Shown: positions 13,178-23,152 of the stretch, piece by piece
Position numbering within the stretch: position 1 is the stretch's first letter
Layout: each line of letters starts with the position of its first letter
Assembly (NCBI GenBank): GCA_019695335.1
Contig: JAIBAF010000003.1
Coordinates: 1 to 51,306, forward strand
DNA length: 51,306 nucleotides
DNA from: a bacterium
Lineage (GTDB): Bacteria > CLD3 > SB21
Direction: 5' to 3'
Notes under the pieces: model-generated
Databases searched by the model: none
The model's input: the letters and a program-made list of their open reading frames with translations, nothing else
What the model was told of the DNA's origin: nothing
Position numbers and translations under genes: made by a program

Positions 13178-14023
13178 ATGGTTCTCGATCAAACTGATTT
13201 CGTCGATTTGCATATGCATTCCGTTCATTCGGACGGACAATTGCCGATTCGTTCTATTATTGATTTTGCGGCAGGCGCCGGATTACGGGCGATTGCCATT
13301 ACCGATCATGACACGGTAGAGGGCGTTGATGAAGCGATGCAGCTAGGCCGTGAAAAAGGACTTGAAATAATTTCGGGTGTTGAACTTAGTGCAACGATTG
13401 AAAACAGAGACATTCATATTTTGGGTTATTTGTTTAATCATTCGGATAAACATTTTTTGGATCGTATCAGTCATTTTAAAGATGAGCGTTATAAACGGGC
13501 TGAAAAGATGGTGCGCAAACTGAACAATGCCGGAGTTCATTTACAAATGGATTCTGTAATGGAATTTGCGGGCCAAGCGGCTGTGGGACGTCCGCACATT
13601 GCCGATGCAATGGTGAAACACGGATTTGCCGAATCCATCGAAGTTGCTTTTCGTGATTATATCGGCTACGGCGGGATTGCATACGAAGATAAATTTAATA
13701 TTACACCGGAAGAGGCCATTCGCATTATAACAGACGCTGGTGGTCTTTCATTTTTGGCGCATCCTTCACTTAATTTGAAGCAAAAATATTTATACCAAGT
13801 GATTCGATCAGGAATTCATGGAATCGAAACCATTCATCCGAATCATTCAGAAAGCTCGTCAAGTTATTATAAGCGAATTGCTATGCAGCATGCTTTGCTT
13901 GAATCCGGCGGATCGGATTGCCATGGCCGTAACGGTGAAATCAATATCGGGAAATATCGAGTGCCTTATAGGGTAATTGAAGCAATGAAAGAAAAGTTGA
14001 ACAAGAAAACGGGGGGTCGATGA
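13178..14023 (+). CDS. PHP-domain phosphoesterase (YciV/TrpH/RNase AM-like)
   Basis: A metal-dependent phosphoesterase. The PHP active-site set is complete: HMHSVHSDG near the N-terminus, AITDHDTVEG, GVELSA, DIHILGYLF, FLAHPSL and a terminal GGSDCHG. Characterised members degrade 3',5'-bisphosphonucleotides such as pAp or act as 5'-3' exoribonucleases. The ATG at 13178 is preferred over the TTG at 13175 because AGGA at 13168-13171 is then better spaced. It gives 281 residues. Its last four bases overlap the start of the RelA-like gene, so the pair is translationally coupled. That coupling suggests a substrate linked to the neighbour's product, which is inference. Confidence 0.88.
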   Translation: MVLDQTDFVDLHMHSVHSDGQLPIRSIIDFAAGAGLRAIAITDHDTVEGVDEAMQLGREKGLEIISGVELSATIENRDIHILGYLFNHSDKHFLDRISHFKDERYKRAEKMVRKLNNAGVHLQMDSVMEFAGQAAVGRPHIADAMVKHGFAESIEVAFRDYIGYGGIAYEDKFNITPEEAIRIITDAGGLSFLAHPSLNLKQKYLYQVIRSGIHGIETIHPNHSESSSSYYKRIAMQHALLESGGSDCHGRNGEINIGKYRVPYRVIEAMKEKLNKKTGGR

Positions 14024-15126
14024 GTCATACGGCCACGATACCTCAATTTCATAATGCTTATACCCATCTATCCGACAGAGAAGCGCATTACATCAGCCAG
14101 ATGACGATCAGCGATCTGGAGGCTATTCGATTGGTTTTGGAGGGTAATTCGGTCATTGACTGGTTCCGACTTGATTTTTCTTCAGACGAACAAATCGAAT
14201 TATTTCTTAGAGTCAACGGTTATGACGCTAATCAAACCCATGATCTTAAGCGCATCGACCGGCTTCGTCGGGAAGCTATTGCGTATCTGGATTTAAATTA
14301 CCCGCACCGGCTGCCGCCGGAATTACGCGAAAACGAAATTCCAATTCATAAATTATTTTATTGGGCATCGGGATCTTACAAACGCTCGAAAATTCAAATG
14401 TTTGCTTGCATGGTTTTAAAAATCATGCATACGCTCAATCATATCGATGCGCGGGAACTTATGCATAGTTGTGAATTTCGCGCATCGGAGTTGTACACGG
14501 CCGTCGAACGTAAAGTTGAAAATGCGATCGTGACTATGCAAAACGAAGGCTTCCATATTGTTGATTTTTACGGAAGCCATAAAGATAAATTCAGTATGAT
14601 AACAAAGCTTATTTCCAAGAAAGAAAATCATGCGGCGGCCATTTATGATAGAATACGATTTCGTATCATTACTTTAACGGTGTCGGACATTTTACCTATG
14701 CTATACTATCTTGGGCGAACAATTTGCCCATTTAATTATGTAATTCCGGGGAGTTCACATAACAGCCTGATTCCTTATCCTGACTTGCTTTCCCATTTTT
14801 CGCGATTTGAGCATTATGCTTCATATTTACGAAAGACGACGTCATTATCAGGTGCTGCGAAAAATAATTCCAACCAATTTTCAGATCCAGGCTACAAAGT
14901 CATTAATATTGTTAGCGACGTGCCGATAAGGGTCGATGAGTTGTTGTATACGCCGGATTTTGCTGAACTCGGAAGGATTATTTTCGTGCCGGTCGAGTTT
15001 CAGATTATGGATCAGGAGACGTATCACAGTAACGAAGCAGGCAACAGCAACCACAAAAAATATAAACAACGACAATCCGAAGCCGTTAATATCCGCTTGG
15101 GAATCCATCTTACTGACCACTTCTAA
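14020..15126 (+). CDS. Divergent RelA/SpoT-like nucleotidyltransferase protein (TIGR04552-like)
   Basis: Not a standard annotated enzyme. The C-terminal half follows the order of a RelA/SpoT synthetase domain: YGSHKDKFSMITKLISKK (about 194-211, basic ATP-binding stretch), IYDRIRFRII (208-217, cf. DLIGIRVI), a degenerate GYQSLH site as GYKVINIVSD (301-310), and VEFQIMDQETYHSNEAGNS (325-343) followed by HKKYK (345-349, cf. EIQIRT...AEyG.AAHwkYK). The acidic residue of E-x-Q-I is kept. The first 150 residues have no HD hydrolase motif. I recall an unnamed family, TIGR04552, with this length and look, but could not check. Predicted to transfer pyrophosphate or act on nucleotides; activity is uncertain because the GYQSLH site is altered. 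Coupled to the PHP gene. Confidence 0.62.
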   Translation: MSHTATIPQFHNAYTHLSDREAHYISQMTISDLEAIRLVLEGNSVIDWFRLDFSSDEQIELFLRVNGYDANQTHDLKRIDRLRREAIAYLDLNYPHRLPPELRENEIPIHKLFYWASGSYKRSKIQMFACMVLKIMHTLNHIDARELMHSCEFRASELYTAVERKVENAIVTMQNEGFHIVDFYGSHKDKFSMITKLISKKENHAAAIYDRIRFRIITLTVSDILPMLYYLGRTICPFNYVIPGSSHNSLIPYPDLLSHFSRFEHYASYLRKTTSLSGAAKNNSNQFSDPGYKVINIVSDVPIRVDELLYTPDFAELGRIIFVPVEFQIMDQETYHSNEAGNSNHKKYKQRQSEAVNIRLGIHLTDHF

Positions 15127-17242: not shown

Positions 17243-18568
17243 ATGATAGGTTATGAAATTATAGCCAAAAAACGCGATCGTCATGAATTAAATCGTGAAG
17301 AAATTTACGGGTTGATTCAAGCTTACTCTTCCGGAAAAATTCCTGATTATCAGATGTCGGCATTTTTAATGGCAACTTACTTGAATGGAATGAGTTTTCG
17401 CGAAATTACTGACTTGACATTGGCTATGCGTGATTCCGGCATCGTACTGGATTTGTCAGATATTTCAGGAGTCAAAATTGATAAACATAGTACTGGCGGC
17501 GTAGGGGATAAAATTTCAATCATACTTGCACCGCTTGCAGCCTCGATGGGTGTAACGGTTCCGATGATCAGCGGCCGGGGCCTGGGGCATACGGGCGGGA
17601 CTTTAGACAAGCTGCAATCTATTCCGGGTTTTGATATTTTTATTTCTACGGATCGGTTTCGTTCAATTTTGAAAGCCATTGGCGTCAGTATGATCGGACA
17701 GACAGAAGAAATTGCGCCGGCTGATCGCAAGCTTTATGCATTGCGTGACGTGACAGGAACCGTTGAATCGATACCGCTGATCTCGGCCAGTATCATGAGT
17801 AAAAAGTTGGCTGAAGGCATTGACGCGTTGATACTGGATGTTAAGGTCGGCAACGGCGCCTTTATGAAAACACTCGATCGCGCAGTTGATTTGGCTCAAC
17901 ATTTAGTGATGATTGGAGAAGGTGCCGGTAAACATACGATCGCATTACTTACAAATATGGATGAACCATTAGGCTTTGCAATCGGTAATTGGCTTGAAGT
18001 TGTAGAATCTATTGATGTTTTAAATGGAAAAGGTCCATCTGATATTCGCGAATTATCGGTTATTCTTGCGGCTAATATGCTGACTATTGCCGATCGGAAA
18101 ATTTCATACGACACTGCGTATAACCTTGCATCTGAAAATCTGAACAACGGGAAAGCTTTTACAAAATTGATAGAATTGGTTCAACACCATAACGGGGATT
18201 CCAGTTTGATTCAAAATCCCGAAAAATATCCAAAAGCAATTTTCAAGAAAGATGTATTCGCTCAGAATGATGGATTTGTAGTATCAATGAATACACATGC
18301 AATCGGAATGACGGGAATTTTGATCGGAGCAGGCCGACTGACGAAGGAAGATTCTATTGACTATACAGCCGGAATAATGCTTCACAAAAAAGTTGGCGAT
18401 CCGGTAAAGAAAAATGAACTGCTCGCGACGATTTTTACTGAGCGCGAAGCCAGCCTTGAAGAAGCTTCGCATAAATTGCTTGACGCGTACCGAATTGATT
18501 TTAATGCACCGGACAAACAACCGCTTATTCTTGGAGTTTTAGATAAAAACGGATTTCGATCAATATAA
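17243..18568 (+). CDS. Pyrimidine-nucleoside (thymidine) phosphorylase
   Basis: Splits thymidine, deoxyuridine or uridine with phosphate to give the base and (deoxy)ribose-1-phosphate, part of nucleoside salvage. It has the DeoA/Pdp signature KHSTGGVGDKISIILAPLAA and SGRGLGHTGGTLDKLQSIPG, plus LRDVTGTVESIPLISASIMS and LDVKVGNGAFMK. The length of 441 residues is that of the family. The substrate range (DeoA-type thymidine-specific versus broader Pdp type) is not decided, so no symbol is given. It is the last gene of the unit that starts at the hybrid kinase; a new promoter follows at 18589. Confidence 0.93.
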   Translation: MIGYEIIAKKRDRHELNREEIYGLIQAYSSGKIPDYQMSAFLMATYLNGMSFREITDLTLAMRDSGIVLDLSDISGVKIDKHSTGGVGDKISIILAPLAASMGVTVPMISGRGLGHTGGTLDKLQSIPGFDIFISTDRFRSILKAIGVSMIGQTEEIAPADRKLYALRDVTGTVESIPLISASIMSKKLAEGIDALILDVKVGNGAFMKTLDRAVDLAQHLVMIGEGAGKHTIALLTNMDEPLGFAIGNWLEVVESIDVLNGKGPSDIRELSVILAANMLTIADRKISYDTAYNLASENLNNGKAFTKLIELVQHHNGDSSLIQNPEKYPKAIFKKDVFAQNDGFVVSMNTHAIGMTGILIGAGRLTKEDSIDYTAGIMLHKKVGDPVKKNELLATIFTEREASLEEASHKLLDAYRIDFNAPDKQPLILGVLDKNGFRSI

Positions 18569-18588: not shown

Positions 18589-18615
18589 TGAAACAATCGT
18601 TTCATACTTAACGTA
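18589..18615 (+). promoter_or_regulatory. ECF-type (sigma-W-like) promoter before the ECF sigma gene
   Basis: TGAAAC (18589-18594), 17 nt, then CGTA (18612-18615). This matches the published Bacillus subtilis ECF sigma-W consensus pattern TGAAAC-N16/17-CGTA. The -35 box also forms a small inverted repeat with GTTTCA at 18599-18604. It ends 18 nt before the ATG at 18634, so the mRNA leader would be very short. It would make the ECF factor autoregulated. Confidence 0.5.
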
Positions 18616-18633
18616 ACACTACCGGCTTGATTT

Positions 18634-19371
18634 ATGGCAAAGAGAAAGGCGAAAGTATCTAAGACTTCCGCGGGTAAGAAAAAGAAAACCAAACGTTCTT
18701 TGACAACCGTTTCTAAACCGCAACCGGTTATTCGTACTCCTGAAATGGATGCTGCGGAACAACAGCGTTTGCAGGCAGAAAAAAGAGAAAAACAAAAGAA
18801 AGAAGATTTTGAGTTGATTGGCCGTGCTATTGCCGGTAATCAACAGGCTTATAAAGATTTAATGCAACGTTATCAGTCGCAAATTTTCAGTCTGATGTAT
18901 CGAATGGTTCATTCGACAACCGAAGCTGAAGATTTGGTTCAGGAAGCATTTATGAAAGCCTTTGGTTCATTGCCGAACTTTAATTATGAATATGCTTTCA
19001 GCACGTGGCTGTATAAAATTGCAACGAATAACTGCATCGATCATTTAAGGAAGAAAAAATTGCAGACGTTTTCAATTGATACACCGGTTACTTACAAGGA
19101 TAGTACATACAATATCGAAATTCCGGATTTGACGTATTATCCCGAGAAAGAAATGATGCGCAACGAACGGAATTCTATTATTAAAGTTGCGATTGATGCA
19201 TTACCTGAGAAGTATAAGACAGTGATCTATTTGCGGCATACGGACGAGTTGTCCTACGAAGAAATTTCGGAATTATTAAAAATTCCTATCGGAACGGTCA
19301 AGGCGCGTATTTTCAGGGCGCGAGAAATGCTAAATAAATTCCTGAAAGGTAAAGTTGAAAAAGGTTCGTAA
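18634..19371 (+). CDS. ECF-family RNA polymerase sigma factor with Lys-rich N-terminal extension
   Basis: A 245-residue extracytoplasmic-function sigma factor. Region 2 has AGNQQAYKDLMQRYQSQIFS, TEAEDLVQEAFMKAF and AFSTWLYKIATNNCIDHLRK (about 68-143). Region 4 has ALPEKYKTVIYLRHTDELSY and EEISELLKIPIGTVKARIFR (about 190-230). Before region 2 there is an unusual extension of about 60 residues: 11 of the first 21 residues are Lys or Arg, followed by a charged helical stretch. No anti-sigma factor is adjacent; the next genes are a toast-rack protein and a TPR protein. The extension could bind nucleic acid or act in regulation, but that is a guess. Confidence 0.92.
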   Translation: MAKRKAKVSKTSAGKKKKTKRSLTTVSKPQPVIRTPEMDAAEQQRLQAEKREKQKKEDFELIGRAIAGNQQAYKDLMQRYQSQIFSLMYRMVHSTTEAEDLVQEAFMKAFGSLPNFNYEYAFSTWLYKIATNNCIDHLRKKKLQTFSIDTPVTYKDSTYNIEIPDLTYYPEKEMMRNERNSIIKVAIDALPEKYKTVIYLRHTDELSYEEISELLKIPIGTVKARIFRAREMLNKFLKGKVEKGS

Positions 19372-19373
19372 GT

Positions 19374-20222
19374 ATGAAGTTGGCTAATATGAAGGTATGG
19401 GCTACGATATTTTTCTCCGGATCGGTGATCACTCTTGTATCGCAATCGAATATCGAAAGCCGTAACCGTGAAGACGAAAAAGAATTGAAAGTGAAAGTCG
19501 AATACGCTGCGGGCGATTTCTCCGTACGCAAAGTTCAGGAAGATAAGTTGTATATCATTCAATCCAAATCAGAAAAAACTTCAATTGCTCCAAAAGCATC
19601 TTATTATAAAAGCGGTAGTACCGGATTCTTAAATTTAGAAATGGATCAAAATACTTCCGTCGACATGTTTGATTTTGGTAAACAAAACTGGTCTCTTGAA
19701 TTTTCGGACAAAATCCCAATGTCTTATAATTTTGAATTAGGCGCATGCAACGGTGAGTTTGATTTTACGGGTCTCCGCGTGCAAGATCTTACATTGTCGA
19801 TGGGCGCCAGTAAAGCTAACGTTTATTTTCGTGCTCCCAATAAAGATCAGATCTATCTTATGAAAATAGAAGCCGGCGCTTCTAAAATGATGATGAGCGG
19901 GCTATGTAACGCAAATTTCGAAAGGATGGAATTTGAAGGCGGCGTGGGTTCATATATCCTCGATTTTTCAGGCGAATTAAAAAGGGATGCAAGAGCTAAT
20001 ATTACCGTCGGACTTGGAAAAGTCACTATTAAAGTTTCCCGTAACACTAATGTAAAGCTTCGTACAGATGAATCGTTTTTTTCGACTTGTAATATCAGCG
20101 ATACTGATTTTGAGAAAAAACAAGATGGATTGTATGTATCCCGTAATTTTAATTCCGAAATACCGGTTTTGGACTTACGTGTAGAAGCGGGTCTCGGCAA
20201 AGTAAATGTCGTGATGGAGTAA
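19374..20222 (+). CDS. Toast-rack/LiaF-like beta-repeat secreted protein
   Basis: A 282-residue protein with an N-terminal signal or anchor (MKLANMKVWATIFFSGSVIT). The rest resembles the toast-rack fold of LiaF-type and DUF4097-like adhesin proteins: short beta repeats such as LEFSDKIPMSYNFELGACNG, LTLSMGASKANVYF, MKIEAGASKMMMSG and LRVEAGLGKVNVVME, with many GA/GxG turns. It lies 2 nt after the ECF sigma gene, so they share a transcript. In Bacillus, LiaF holds down an envelope-stress two-component system. Here it may sense or buffer envelope damage for the sigma factor; no transmembrane domain able to bind sigma is visible beyond the N-terminal segment. Confidence 0.65.
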   Translation: MKLANMKVWATIFFSGSVITLVSQSNIESRNREDEKELKVKVEYAAGDFSVRKVQEDKLYIIQSKSEKTSIAPKASYYKSGSTGFLNLEMDQNTSVDMFDFGKQNWSLEFSDKIPMSYNFELGACNGEFDFTGLRVQDLTLSMGASKANVYFRAPNKDQIYLMKIEAGASKMMMSGLCNANFERMEFEGGVGSYILDFSGELKRDARANITVGLGKVTIKVSRNTNVKLRTDESFFSTCNISDTDFEKKQDGLYVSRNFNSEIPVLDLRVEAGLGKVNVVME

Positions 20223-20227
20223 CGTTA

Positions 20228-22066
20228 GTGAACGGCAAAATTAAATATCTTTGCCTTTTTTTAGGTTTATTGAGCATTACCGCTTTTGGCCAAAACAATA
20301 GTTACAAATTTGAAACAGCCAAAAATTTTGAAAAAGACGGCCAATATGATAAAGCCCTTTCGATTTACGAAGAGTTATATAAAAGCGATTCGACTAATTT
20401 TGATTTGATTTCTCGCCTTAAAAGCCTCTATAAGATCACTAATAATCATTCTTCACGAATTAATGTTATCAGTCGTCAATTGTCCGGCGATTCTCTAAAT
20501 GTAGCGCTAATTGCCGAATTAGCGGATGCGTATTATCGTAATAAAAATATTGAATACGCCAGAGTATTGGTCAATAAAGCGGTCCAGTTGTCCGGAAAAT
20601 CGGTATCCAGTTATCGCATGATTGCAGCGATGATGATCGAAAATCGTTGGTTTGACGAAGTAGAGCGTGTTTATCAATATGCCCGAAAGTCGATGGGACA
20701 AGAAGATTTGTTTGTAATTGAAATGGCTAAATTGCATATGTATCGTGGCGATTATTATAGTGCAACCAAAGAGCTATTCAAATATTATCGGATGAATGTC
20801 GGTACATTCTCATATTTGCAAACACAACTCAACCAATTTCCTGATACTGAAAAAGACAATGCTTCTGTTATCAAAGCAATAAAAGAAGAGTTGATTGATC
20901 AACCTAAGGATCGTTCGATTCAGAAGCTTTTAATTGAATCGTATTTAAAAAATAAAAATTACGATTTAGCTTTTGAACAGTGCAAACAGTTAGATCGATT
21001 GACCGGTAACGACGGAATTGAAGTATTGAATTTTGCCAATTTAACTTTTCAGAGTGAGGCTTATGATGTTGCACAAAAAGCCTTTATTTATTTTCTGGCG
21101 CTCTATCCGAATTCACCTCAAGCCGAAATCGGCTTAGCCAGATGTTTTGAAAAAATGGATAATTCCATTCGGCATGCATACGATATTGCCGATACGGTTT
21201 CAAAAGTGAAGGAATCGGCTTTTTCCAATGAGGCCGTTAAAATGTATCGTACTGTTGTTAAAAAATATCCATCAACCGAATGGAGTGCAGAAGCTTATTT
21301 CCGAATTGGAGAAATTTATATTGACCGGTTTCAGGATGTCGATGAAGCGCTGAATCAATTTAAAGCTGTTCTTTCGGATTATTCGGCCACACCTTTACGT
21401 TATGATGCAATATTTAGAATTGCTGAATGTTTGATTGTACGTGGCAAATTAAATGATGCGATGGATCAGTATTCAGTTGTGAGAATGGAAGTCAAAGGTG
21501 GCGAGGTCAAAGATCGCGCTGATTTTATGATTGGAGTAACATTGTTTTATAAGCAAGACTTCGATTCATGTCGCAATCTGATGAAATTACTGGCTCGGCG
21601 GCAAGATGGCGTTTTTGTCAATGATGCATTGACTTATTTGCTTCTGATTCAAGACGGTAATAAAGCTAAAGAAGAACTCAAGGATTATTCACGAGCGGTG
21701 CTGTTCGAAAAGCAGCGAAAATATTCTGAATCAATGACCATTTTAAGAAGTTTGATCGAAAATAATCCCAAGTCGCCGTTAGCGGATGATGCAATGCTCA
21801 AAACAGGAGAATTATTTGTTAAAACTGGGGATTATGACAAAGCGATCGTGGTGTTCAATAATGTTGCTGACTATATGACGACAAGCCCGCTTACGGATCT
21901 GGCCTTGATGAAAGCAGGTGAGGTGTATGAATATAATTTAAAAGATTTATTTCAAGCAGTCAAAACTTACAAAGGAGTATTGACACGGTTTCCTCGTAGT
22001 ATTTATTCTGTTCAGGCGCGTAAAAAAGTTCGCGAGCTTGAACAAAAAATCCAAAAATCATCCTAA
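20228..22066 (+). CDS. Secreted tetratricopeptide-repeat protein
   Basis: A 612-residue protein starting with a signal peptide ending at about residue 21 (LSITAFGQ). The start is GTG at 20228, supported by GGAG at 20216-20219. TPR-like units run through most of the length, including FEKDGQYDKALSIYEELYKS, AEAYFRIGEIYIDRF, VDEALNQFKAVLSDY and DAMLKTGELFVKTGDYDKAI. It belongs to the family of outer-membrane or periplasmic TPR scaffolds similar to YbgF or BamD-like proteins, but no lipobox is visible. Third gene of the ECF operon, 5 nt after the toast-rack gene. Probably a protein-binding scaffold in the periplasm. Confidence 0.85.
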   Translation: MNGKIKYLCLFLGLLSITAFGQNNSYKFETAKNFEKDGQYDKALSIYEELYKSDSTNFDLISRLKSLYKITNNHSSRINVISRQLSGDSLNVALIAELADAYYRNKNIEYARVLVNKAVQLSGKSVSSYRMIAAMMIENRWFDEVERVYQYARKSMGQEDLFVIEMAKLHMYRGDYYSATKELFKYYRMNVGTFSYLQTQLNQFPDTEKDNASVIKAIKEELIDQPKDRSIQKLLIESYLKNKNYDLAFEQCKQLDRLTGNDGIEVLNFANLTFQSEAYDVAQKAFIYFLALYPNSPQAEIGLARCFEKMDNSIRHAYDIADTVSKVKESAFSNEAVKMYRTVVKKYPSTEWSAEAYFRIGEIYIDRFQDVDEALNQFKAVLSDYSATPLRYDAIFRIAECLIVRGKLNDAMDQYSVVRMEVKGGEVKDRADFMIGVTLFYKQDFDSCRNLMKLLARRQDGVFVNDALTYLLLIQDGNKAKEELKDYSRAVLFEKQRKYSESMTILRSLIENNPKSPLADDAMLKTGELFVKTGDYDKAIVVFNNVADYMTTSPLTDLALMKAGEVYEYNLKDLFQAVKTYKGVLTRFPRSIYSVQARKKVRELEQKIQKSS

Positions 22067-22081
22067 CTACTGCTGTAAACA

Positions 22082-23152
22082 CTAACTTCCTGACTTTTTC
22101 GATTCTTCCAATTTTTCTTTGGCCATATCGAGCCTAAGCTTCACTTCATCAGAAGGCATTGTTCTCATGGACTTAGTTAAGTATTTAACGGCAGCCTCAT
22201 AGTTTTTCTTTTTGAAATAACCCCAACCTAAAATGTCTGTGGATTCAATATTGTTAGGGGCTAATTCATCAGCCGCTTTAGCCAATGTGATGCCCCAATC
22301 ATAATCAATATCTTTGTCAATCAACGCCCATGCAACTAAGTTGTAATTGGTAATTTTTTTACCTTGAGTATCATTTATTATCGAATTCAAAACCTCTTTT
22401 GCTTTCTCCTCATCTCCGTTTTTCCACAATGCTGCAGCATAATTTACACGCGAAGCTTTATCTTTATTGTCGTATTTTAAAAGTTCGCCATAATAATTGA
22501 CCGCTTTACTGTAATTACCCAACGCAAAATATAGTTCACCTAAATTGTATAGCGTCTTAATATCATCAGACTTGTACTGTAAAGCTTTTTGAAATTGTGC
22601 AACACTTTTTCCTGCTTCTTCTTTTGAATTGTACAGGAAGCCCAGCAGAGAATGAAGTTCAAATGTACTGACACCTGCTTTTTCAGCCATTTCCATTTCA
22701 CTGATAGCATCGTCGGTATTATTTTGTTCATCTGCCATGAGCCCCTTGACATAATGAGCGTAACCATTATTTGGATTGCTATTAAAGGCTTTGTCAATAT
22801 ATGTATTTGCTTGATTGAACATGGCTTCTTTCATCTTCATATTGTTGGAAGATTTATGTTTTAAGCCAGCCTTGACATAGGCCTCAGCGGCTTTAGCTGC
22901 GGCATCCGAAAAACTATCGTCCAGTTCAAGTGCTTTTAAATAAAAATCCAAAGCTTTTTCAATATCACGTTTTTCCATAGCTTCATCGCCCTGGTTCAGA
23001 AACGCGATCGATTGTTTGGGTACACCTTTGTACGGATTCGGTTTAATATATTGAATGGATACTACGATAGCGACGATCACGACAATGGCAATTCCACCGA
23101 TTACAATTTTGTTCTTCCAAAGAGGAATAGCCGTAGGCTGAGTTTTAGACAT
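22082..23152 (-). CDS. Membrane-anchored tetratricopeptide-repeat protein
   Basis: A 356-residue protein with one N-terminal transmembrane segment (about 15-32, IVIGGIAIVVIVAIVVSI) followed by TPR units: AFLNQGDEAMEKRDIEKALD, DIKTLYNLGELYFALGNYSK and STDILGWGYFKKKNYEAAVK. It therefore sits in the inner membrane with a large TPR domain facing out or in. It is convergent with the TPR gene ending at 22066 (15-nt gap, no terminator seen) and is 32 nt downstream of polA, so it may be co-transcribed with polA. Function unknown beyond scaffolding. Confidence 0.82.
   Translation of the reverse strand: MSKTQPTAIPLWKNKIVIGGIAIVVIVAIVVSIQYIKPNPYKGVPKQSIAFLNQGDEAMEKRDIEKALDFYLKALELDDSFSDAAAKAAEAYVKAGLKHKSSNNMKMKEAMFNQANTYIDKAFNSNPNNGYAHYVKGLMADEQNNTDDAISEMEMAEKAGVSTFELHSLLGFLYNSKEEAGKSVAQFQKALQYKSDDIKTLYNLGELYFALGNYSKAVNYYGELLKYDNKDKASRVNYAAALWKNGDEEKAKEVLNSIINDTQGKKITNYNLVAWALIDKDIDYDWGITLAKAADELAPNNIESTDILGWGYFKKKNYEAAVKYLTKSMRTMPSDEVKLRLDMAKEKLEESKKSGS

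Follow-up and report, generated by a model that had tools for sequence, protein, structure and literature searches.

A compact module of an ECF sigma factor and an exported toast-rack protein, with a candidate [T/C]GNAAC-N16/17-CGTA promoter and no linked anti-sigma gene

The window, i.e. the complete stretch of 51,306 nt that was analysed (contig JAIBAF010000003.1, positions 1 to 51,306), contains a putative promoter followed by three closely spaced genes. Open reading frames were called mechanically, and the features are the following:

18589..18594, + strand: TGAAAC, -35 element of the candidate ECF promoter (exact match; GNAAC in 41/43 module loci)
18612..18615, + strand: CGTA, -10 element of the candidate ECF promoter (exact match; conserved in relatives and module loci)
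18634..19371, + strand: ECF sigma factor, 245 aa (Pfam/NCBIfam; B. subtilis SigW 5wuq)
19374..20222, + strand: exported toast-rack protein, 282 aa, with signal peptide (Toast_rack_N, 1.8e-5; AlphaFold2 model; match to 4qrk)
20228..22066, + strand: exported TPR protein, 612 aa, third gene of the operon (TPR_6, 1.1e-26; signal peptide)

The two promoter elements are separated by 17 nt and the ATG of the sigma gene (18634) lies 18 nt past CGTA, so that the coordinates confirm the original prediction of a TGAAAC-N17-CGTA motif at that distance from an ECF sigma gene. Only 2 nt separate the sigma stop codon from the toast-rack gene, and 5 nt the latter from the TPR gene. Upstream, a gene of the pyrimidine nucleoside phosphorylase family (17243-18568) lies on the same strand and ends 20 nt before the motif, and read-through from that gene is therefore possible; downstream, the neighbouring gene (22082-23152, - strand) is convergent with the operon. 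Elsewhere in the window, positions 14020-15126 encode a protein of 368 aa with a sub-threshold match to RelA_SpoT (9.8e-5, 23 vs 27 bits).

The sigma factor consists of regions 2 and 4 only, joined by a short linker, as expected of an ECF (Sigma70_r2, residues 76-142, 1.8e-21; Sigma70_r4_2, residues 183-233, 1.5e-16; both above the Pfam cut-offs), and the GNAAC / CGTA elements found in 41/43 loci likewise correspond to those of an ECF promoter. Its best solved homologue is SigW of B. subtilis (5wuq, 4e-38) and its best NCBIfam model is SigW as well, yet the scores stay under the curated cut-offs (182.4 vs 209 and 159.6 vs 243.1 bits) and a zf-HC2 partner of the RsiW type is absent, so that the protein does not qualify as a SigW equivalog. 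It further differs from SigW in a lysine-rich N-terminal extension of ~50 aa, which is preserved within the family, together with the start; in relatives this start lies 7-18 nt after CGTA, directly behind the promoter.

In the case of the second gene, the original prediction of a LiaF-like toast-rack protein held for the toast-rack part, as Toast_rack_N (PF17115) passes its Pfam cut-off (25.3 vs 22 bits), but not for the likeness to LiaF, as LiaF-like_C remains under its own (21.9 vs 29 bits) and the protein has only a signal peptide where LiaF has an N-terminal multi-helix membrane domain. An AlphaFold2 model based on 29 homologues (pLDDT 88.5, pTM 0.84) displays the beta-helix fold of the toast-rack, with a solved toast-rack, 4qrk, as the best match in the PDB (2.5e-16, TM 0.49/0.62). 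According to a hydropathy calculation, all 29 homologues (29/29) have an N-terminal hydrophobic stretch resembling a signal peptide, preceded by a short stretch; no likely further membrane segment was found in these 29 and few residues would be cytosolic. The third gene does encode a TPR protein, as had been proposed, but its orthologue adjoins the module at only three of 80 loci (L037-L039), and this linkage is restricted to the family of the source bacterium.

A match of the motif to the sigma-W consensus of Bacillus had been put forward as well. It does match the published SigW consensus, TGAAACN16,17CGTA (PMC2375139), but AAC at -35 and CGT at -10 constitute the general ECF promoter pattern and autoregulation is predicted for ~55% of ECFs (PMC8103513), and for that reason neither the likeness nor autoregulation is remarkable by itself. 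The likeness is thus mostly the general ECF pattern and points to no special relation with sigma-W. Within the window the motif occurs once, against 0.17 occurrences expected from shuffled sequence, and both boxes are kept in five members of the family, where the identity of the spacer falls to as little as 7/17.

To follow the module across species we scanned one genome per species, which yielded 80 sigma loci, 43 of them with a toast-rack gene (from Calditrichota, KSB1 and Ignavibacteriota/Bacteroidota MAGs) and 37 without. NGNAAC-N16/17-CGTA was found before the sigma gene or between the sigma and toast-rack genes in 41/43 loci, against ~1.1 predicted by the background of the loci themselves, although these loci are related and were selected by similarity and should not be counted as independent events. 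The reversed pattern was found in 2 of the 43 and the motif on the wrong strand in 1, and none of the 37 loci that lack the toast-rack gene has the motif before sigma. The spacing is strict: 16 in 25 loci and 17 in 16, and 0 or 1 locus for any other value from 12 to 22. No tetramer is nearly as common at the -10 spacing as CGTA (41 loci); the runner-up (14) is a shifted copy of CGTA itself.

The position of the motif follows the gene arrangement. In loci whose two genes are closely coupled (the source bacterium's family, Calditrichota and KSB1) the promoter precedes sigma; in the Ignavibacteriota/Bacteroidota MAGs the genes are separated by a gap, in most cases of 45-100 nt, and the promoter lies inside that gap. 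This amounts to 12 loci with the motif before sigma and 29 with the motif between the genes, some of the matches falling just inside mechanically called toast-rack starts. Since 41/43 loci carry the motif in one of these two positions, the conserved circuit would be that from sigma to the toast-rack gene, and strict spacing together with the switch in position speaks against an explanation by common descent of the DNA alone. The best supported reading is that autoregulation represents one of two arrangements, with the toast-rack gene as the probable constant target. The autoregulation that had been proposed is consequently strongly implied for the source lineage but does not define the module, as 29/41 loci have the promoter before the toast-rack gene and not before sigma. 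The two genes are the only ones conserved on their strand, with neighbours mostly on the opposite one, and in the sigma tree the toast-rack partners occur in two deep clades that are separated by clades lacking the partner.

A frequency no higher than chance had been named as a finding that would speak against the motif. The raw count over the genome shows no excess (22 matches vs 23 for the reversed pattern) and, being equal to the control, is uninformative; we therefore dropped it in favour of position and conservation. When one classification rule was applied to motif and control matches alike, 12/22 motif matches were found in promoter position, i.e. in intergenic DNA directly ahead of a gene, vs 1/23 control matches (Fisher p = 2e-4). 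In the distant genome that harbours locus L081 the enrichment was weak (7/15 vs 2/12, p = 0.11, with a control that was scrambled rather than strictly reversed).

A regulon, as originally suggested, is thus likely: several of the sites are kept before orthologous genes of other species and genera, with the exact motif recurring in G001, G003, G004 and G005 (orthology judged from protein starts) and with spacers that are 5/16 to 11/16 identical between unlinked orthologue pairs. The motif is retained before orthologues of a DUF4097 toast-rack protein, an alpha/beta hydrolase with TPRs, a DUF4386 membrane protein, an AraC regulator, an ArsR regulator and a TlpA-like protein, and, in three genera, before an exported protein without Pfam match; a gene for an aspartyl-protease/PDZ protein is also among the unlinked genes preceded by this promoter type. 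The DUF4097 protein is a second exported toast-rack, with repeats of the DDGSG type (L015, G000:C1:123991-124017; L186 in G001), and the exported protein without Pfam match, a repeat protein of ~480 aa, is situated behind the motif at L036, L216, L179, L232 and L242.

An identical sequence of 26 nt, TGAAACTTTTTATATTGGAAACCGTA, precedes TetR-type genes in two genera (L020, G000:C4:71948-71973; L225, G004:C25:27715-27740), and the regulators behind it differ between the two; the site might serve a repressor and not be a sigma promoter. In four genomes (L026, G000:C17:23257-23282; L194; L223; L185) TGAAAC-N16-CGTA occurs at an ArsR-type gene, where the motif overlaps AT-rich repeats resembling an ArsR operator. 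The regulon candidates before ArsR and TetR genes could be operators of those repressors.

As the original prediction stated, the operon has no standard anti-sigma factor. An anti-sigma gene normally shares a transcript with its sigma gene (PMC8103513), and an adjacent cognate gene is the mark of a canonical ECF system, but no linked candidate was encountered in the window or in the 43 loci. A zinc-motif pattern loose enough to recover the genome's own known zf-HC2 example returned, among the neighbours in the 43 loci, a single non-credible ORF (L051). That example, the only zf-HC2 anti-sigma-like protein of the genome, is short and soluble and is encoded on contig C118 beside another ECF (L006, L274).

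Might the motif have arisen by chance or serve as an operator instead of a sigma promoter? The genome-wide total does not exceed the reversed control, and at the window locus a perfect inverted repeat, TGAAAC-N4-GTTTCA, overlaps the -35 element. When its conservation was checked in other genera, however, the repeat was absent and both boxes remained, and we rejected it as an operator; moreover, the motif is conserved across phyla at two spacings only. We consider such an explanation highly improbable, and the comparisons support the view that the window motif behaves like a genuine sigma-dependent promoter. It had also been suggested that the toast-rack protein might bind the sigma factor, and one may extend this to an anti-sigma factor of a novel type or to feedback on sigma from the outside. 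Its close linkage to sigma in two deep clades would fit, as would the fact that toast-rack domains elsewhere belong to envelope-stress signalling systems (PMC11237479). Nevertheless, the signal peptide and the near absence of a cytosolic part leave no space in the cytoplasm for a domain that would bind sigma, so that the protein cannot be a classical anti-sigma factor, and in 29 loci it has its own promoter and is not read together with sigma from that promoter. This role is therefore very unlikely, and the toast-rack protein is, judged by these features, a predicted target of sigma and not a classical anti-sigma factor.

A less distant alternative accepts the promoter and regards the toast-rack gene as an ordinary target, but takes the sigma factor to be canonical and kept in check by an anti-sigma factor whose gene lies in another part of the genome. 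Anti-sigma genes can in principle be unlinked, our search covered linkage and the zf-HC2 family, and anti-sigma domains that lack the zinc motif are hard to spot; on the other hand, co-transcription is the rule for such genes, none of the 43 loci has a linked candidate and the sole zf-HC2 protein adjoins a different ECF. This possibility deserves to be kept in mind but is not the one we favour. Similarly tentative is the view that sigma and toast-rack make up an old envelope-response module of two genes, distributed across several phyla, that would have no anti-sigma factor at all and whose state would depend on expression, on the N-terminal extension in those sigma factors that have one, or on feedback exerted by the exported toast-rack.

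The reading that we prefer, with a probability of roughly 0.75, is that of a compact module of an ECF sigma factor and a toast-rack protein, in which sigma reads [T/C]GNAAC-N16/17-CGTA and the toast-rack is the conserved exported output. In such a module sigma would direct RNA polymerase to promoters of this type, as we infer from the linkage and from the similarity to SigW, although these elements might also be readable by other ECF-like sigma factors of the genome. The window promoter would drive the sigma gene and, via it, the genes for the exported toast-rack and TPR proteins, which implies a putative positive feedback loop in the source lineage; the same promoter type would drive unlinked genes, many of them for exported or membrane proteins. 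The toast-rack would be an effector of the envelope and act extracytoplasmically, and the exported targets suggest a role in envelope stress. Sigma would most likely be held off by its own level, namely by expression control, read-through from the upstream operon and turnover, or else by an unlinked regulator.

Compared to SigW/RsiW of Bacillus, whose sigma is the closest solved homologue and whose promoter matches (PMC2375139), the window operon has an exported toast-rack as partner in place of an RsiW-like anti-sigma gene. ECF sigma factors that have no anti-sigma gene beside them are already known, and the module shares this property with such non-canonical ECFs; the part consulted of a review on them lists STPK, TetR, PadR, two-component systems and ABC transporters, among others, as partners and does not name the toast-rack (PMC8999054). 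The toast-rack domain and the envelope link are shared with LiaF/LiaG, VraT and other PSP/Lia contexts (PMC11237479), but the window protein lacks the LiaI-LiaF-TM or PspC membrane domain and is exported by a signal peptide. Ravi et al., who argue that the toast-rack is intracellular, mention one four-gene toast-rack context, with DUF2089, in which a sigma factor shares the operon (PMC11237479); beyond that one sentence, none of the literature consulted connects the toast-rack to an ECF sigma.

The analysis thereby provides an uncharacterised ECF lineage, from phyla that are mostly uncultured, with a defined candidate promoter, a probable constant linked target and regulon candidates, and it would cast toast-rack proteins, so far discussed as intracellular partners in PSP/Lia systems, as exported proteins under the control of an ECF sigma factor. 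It also raises the question how the sigma factor stays off without a linked anti-sigma factor.
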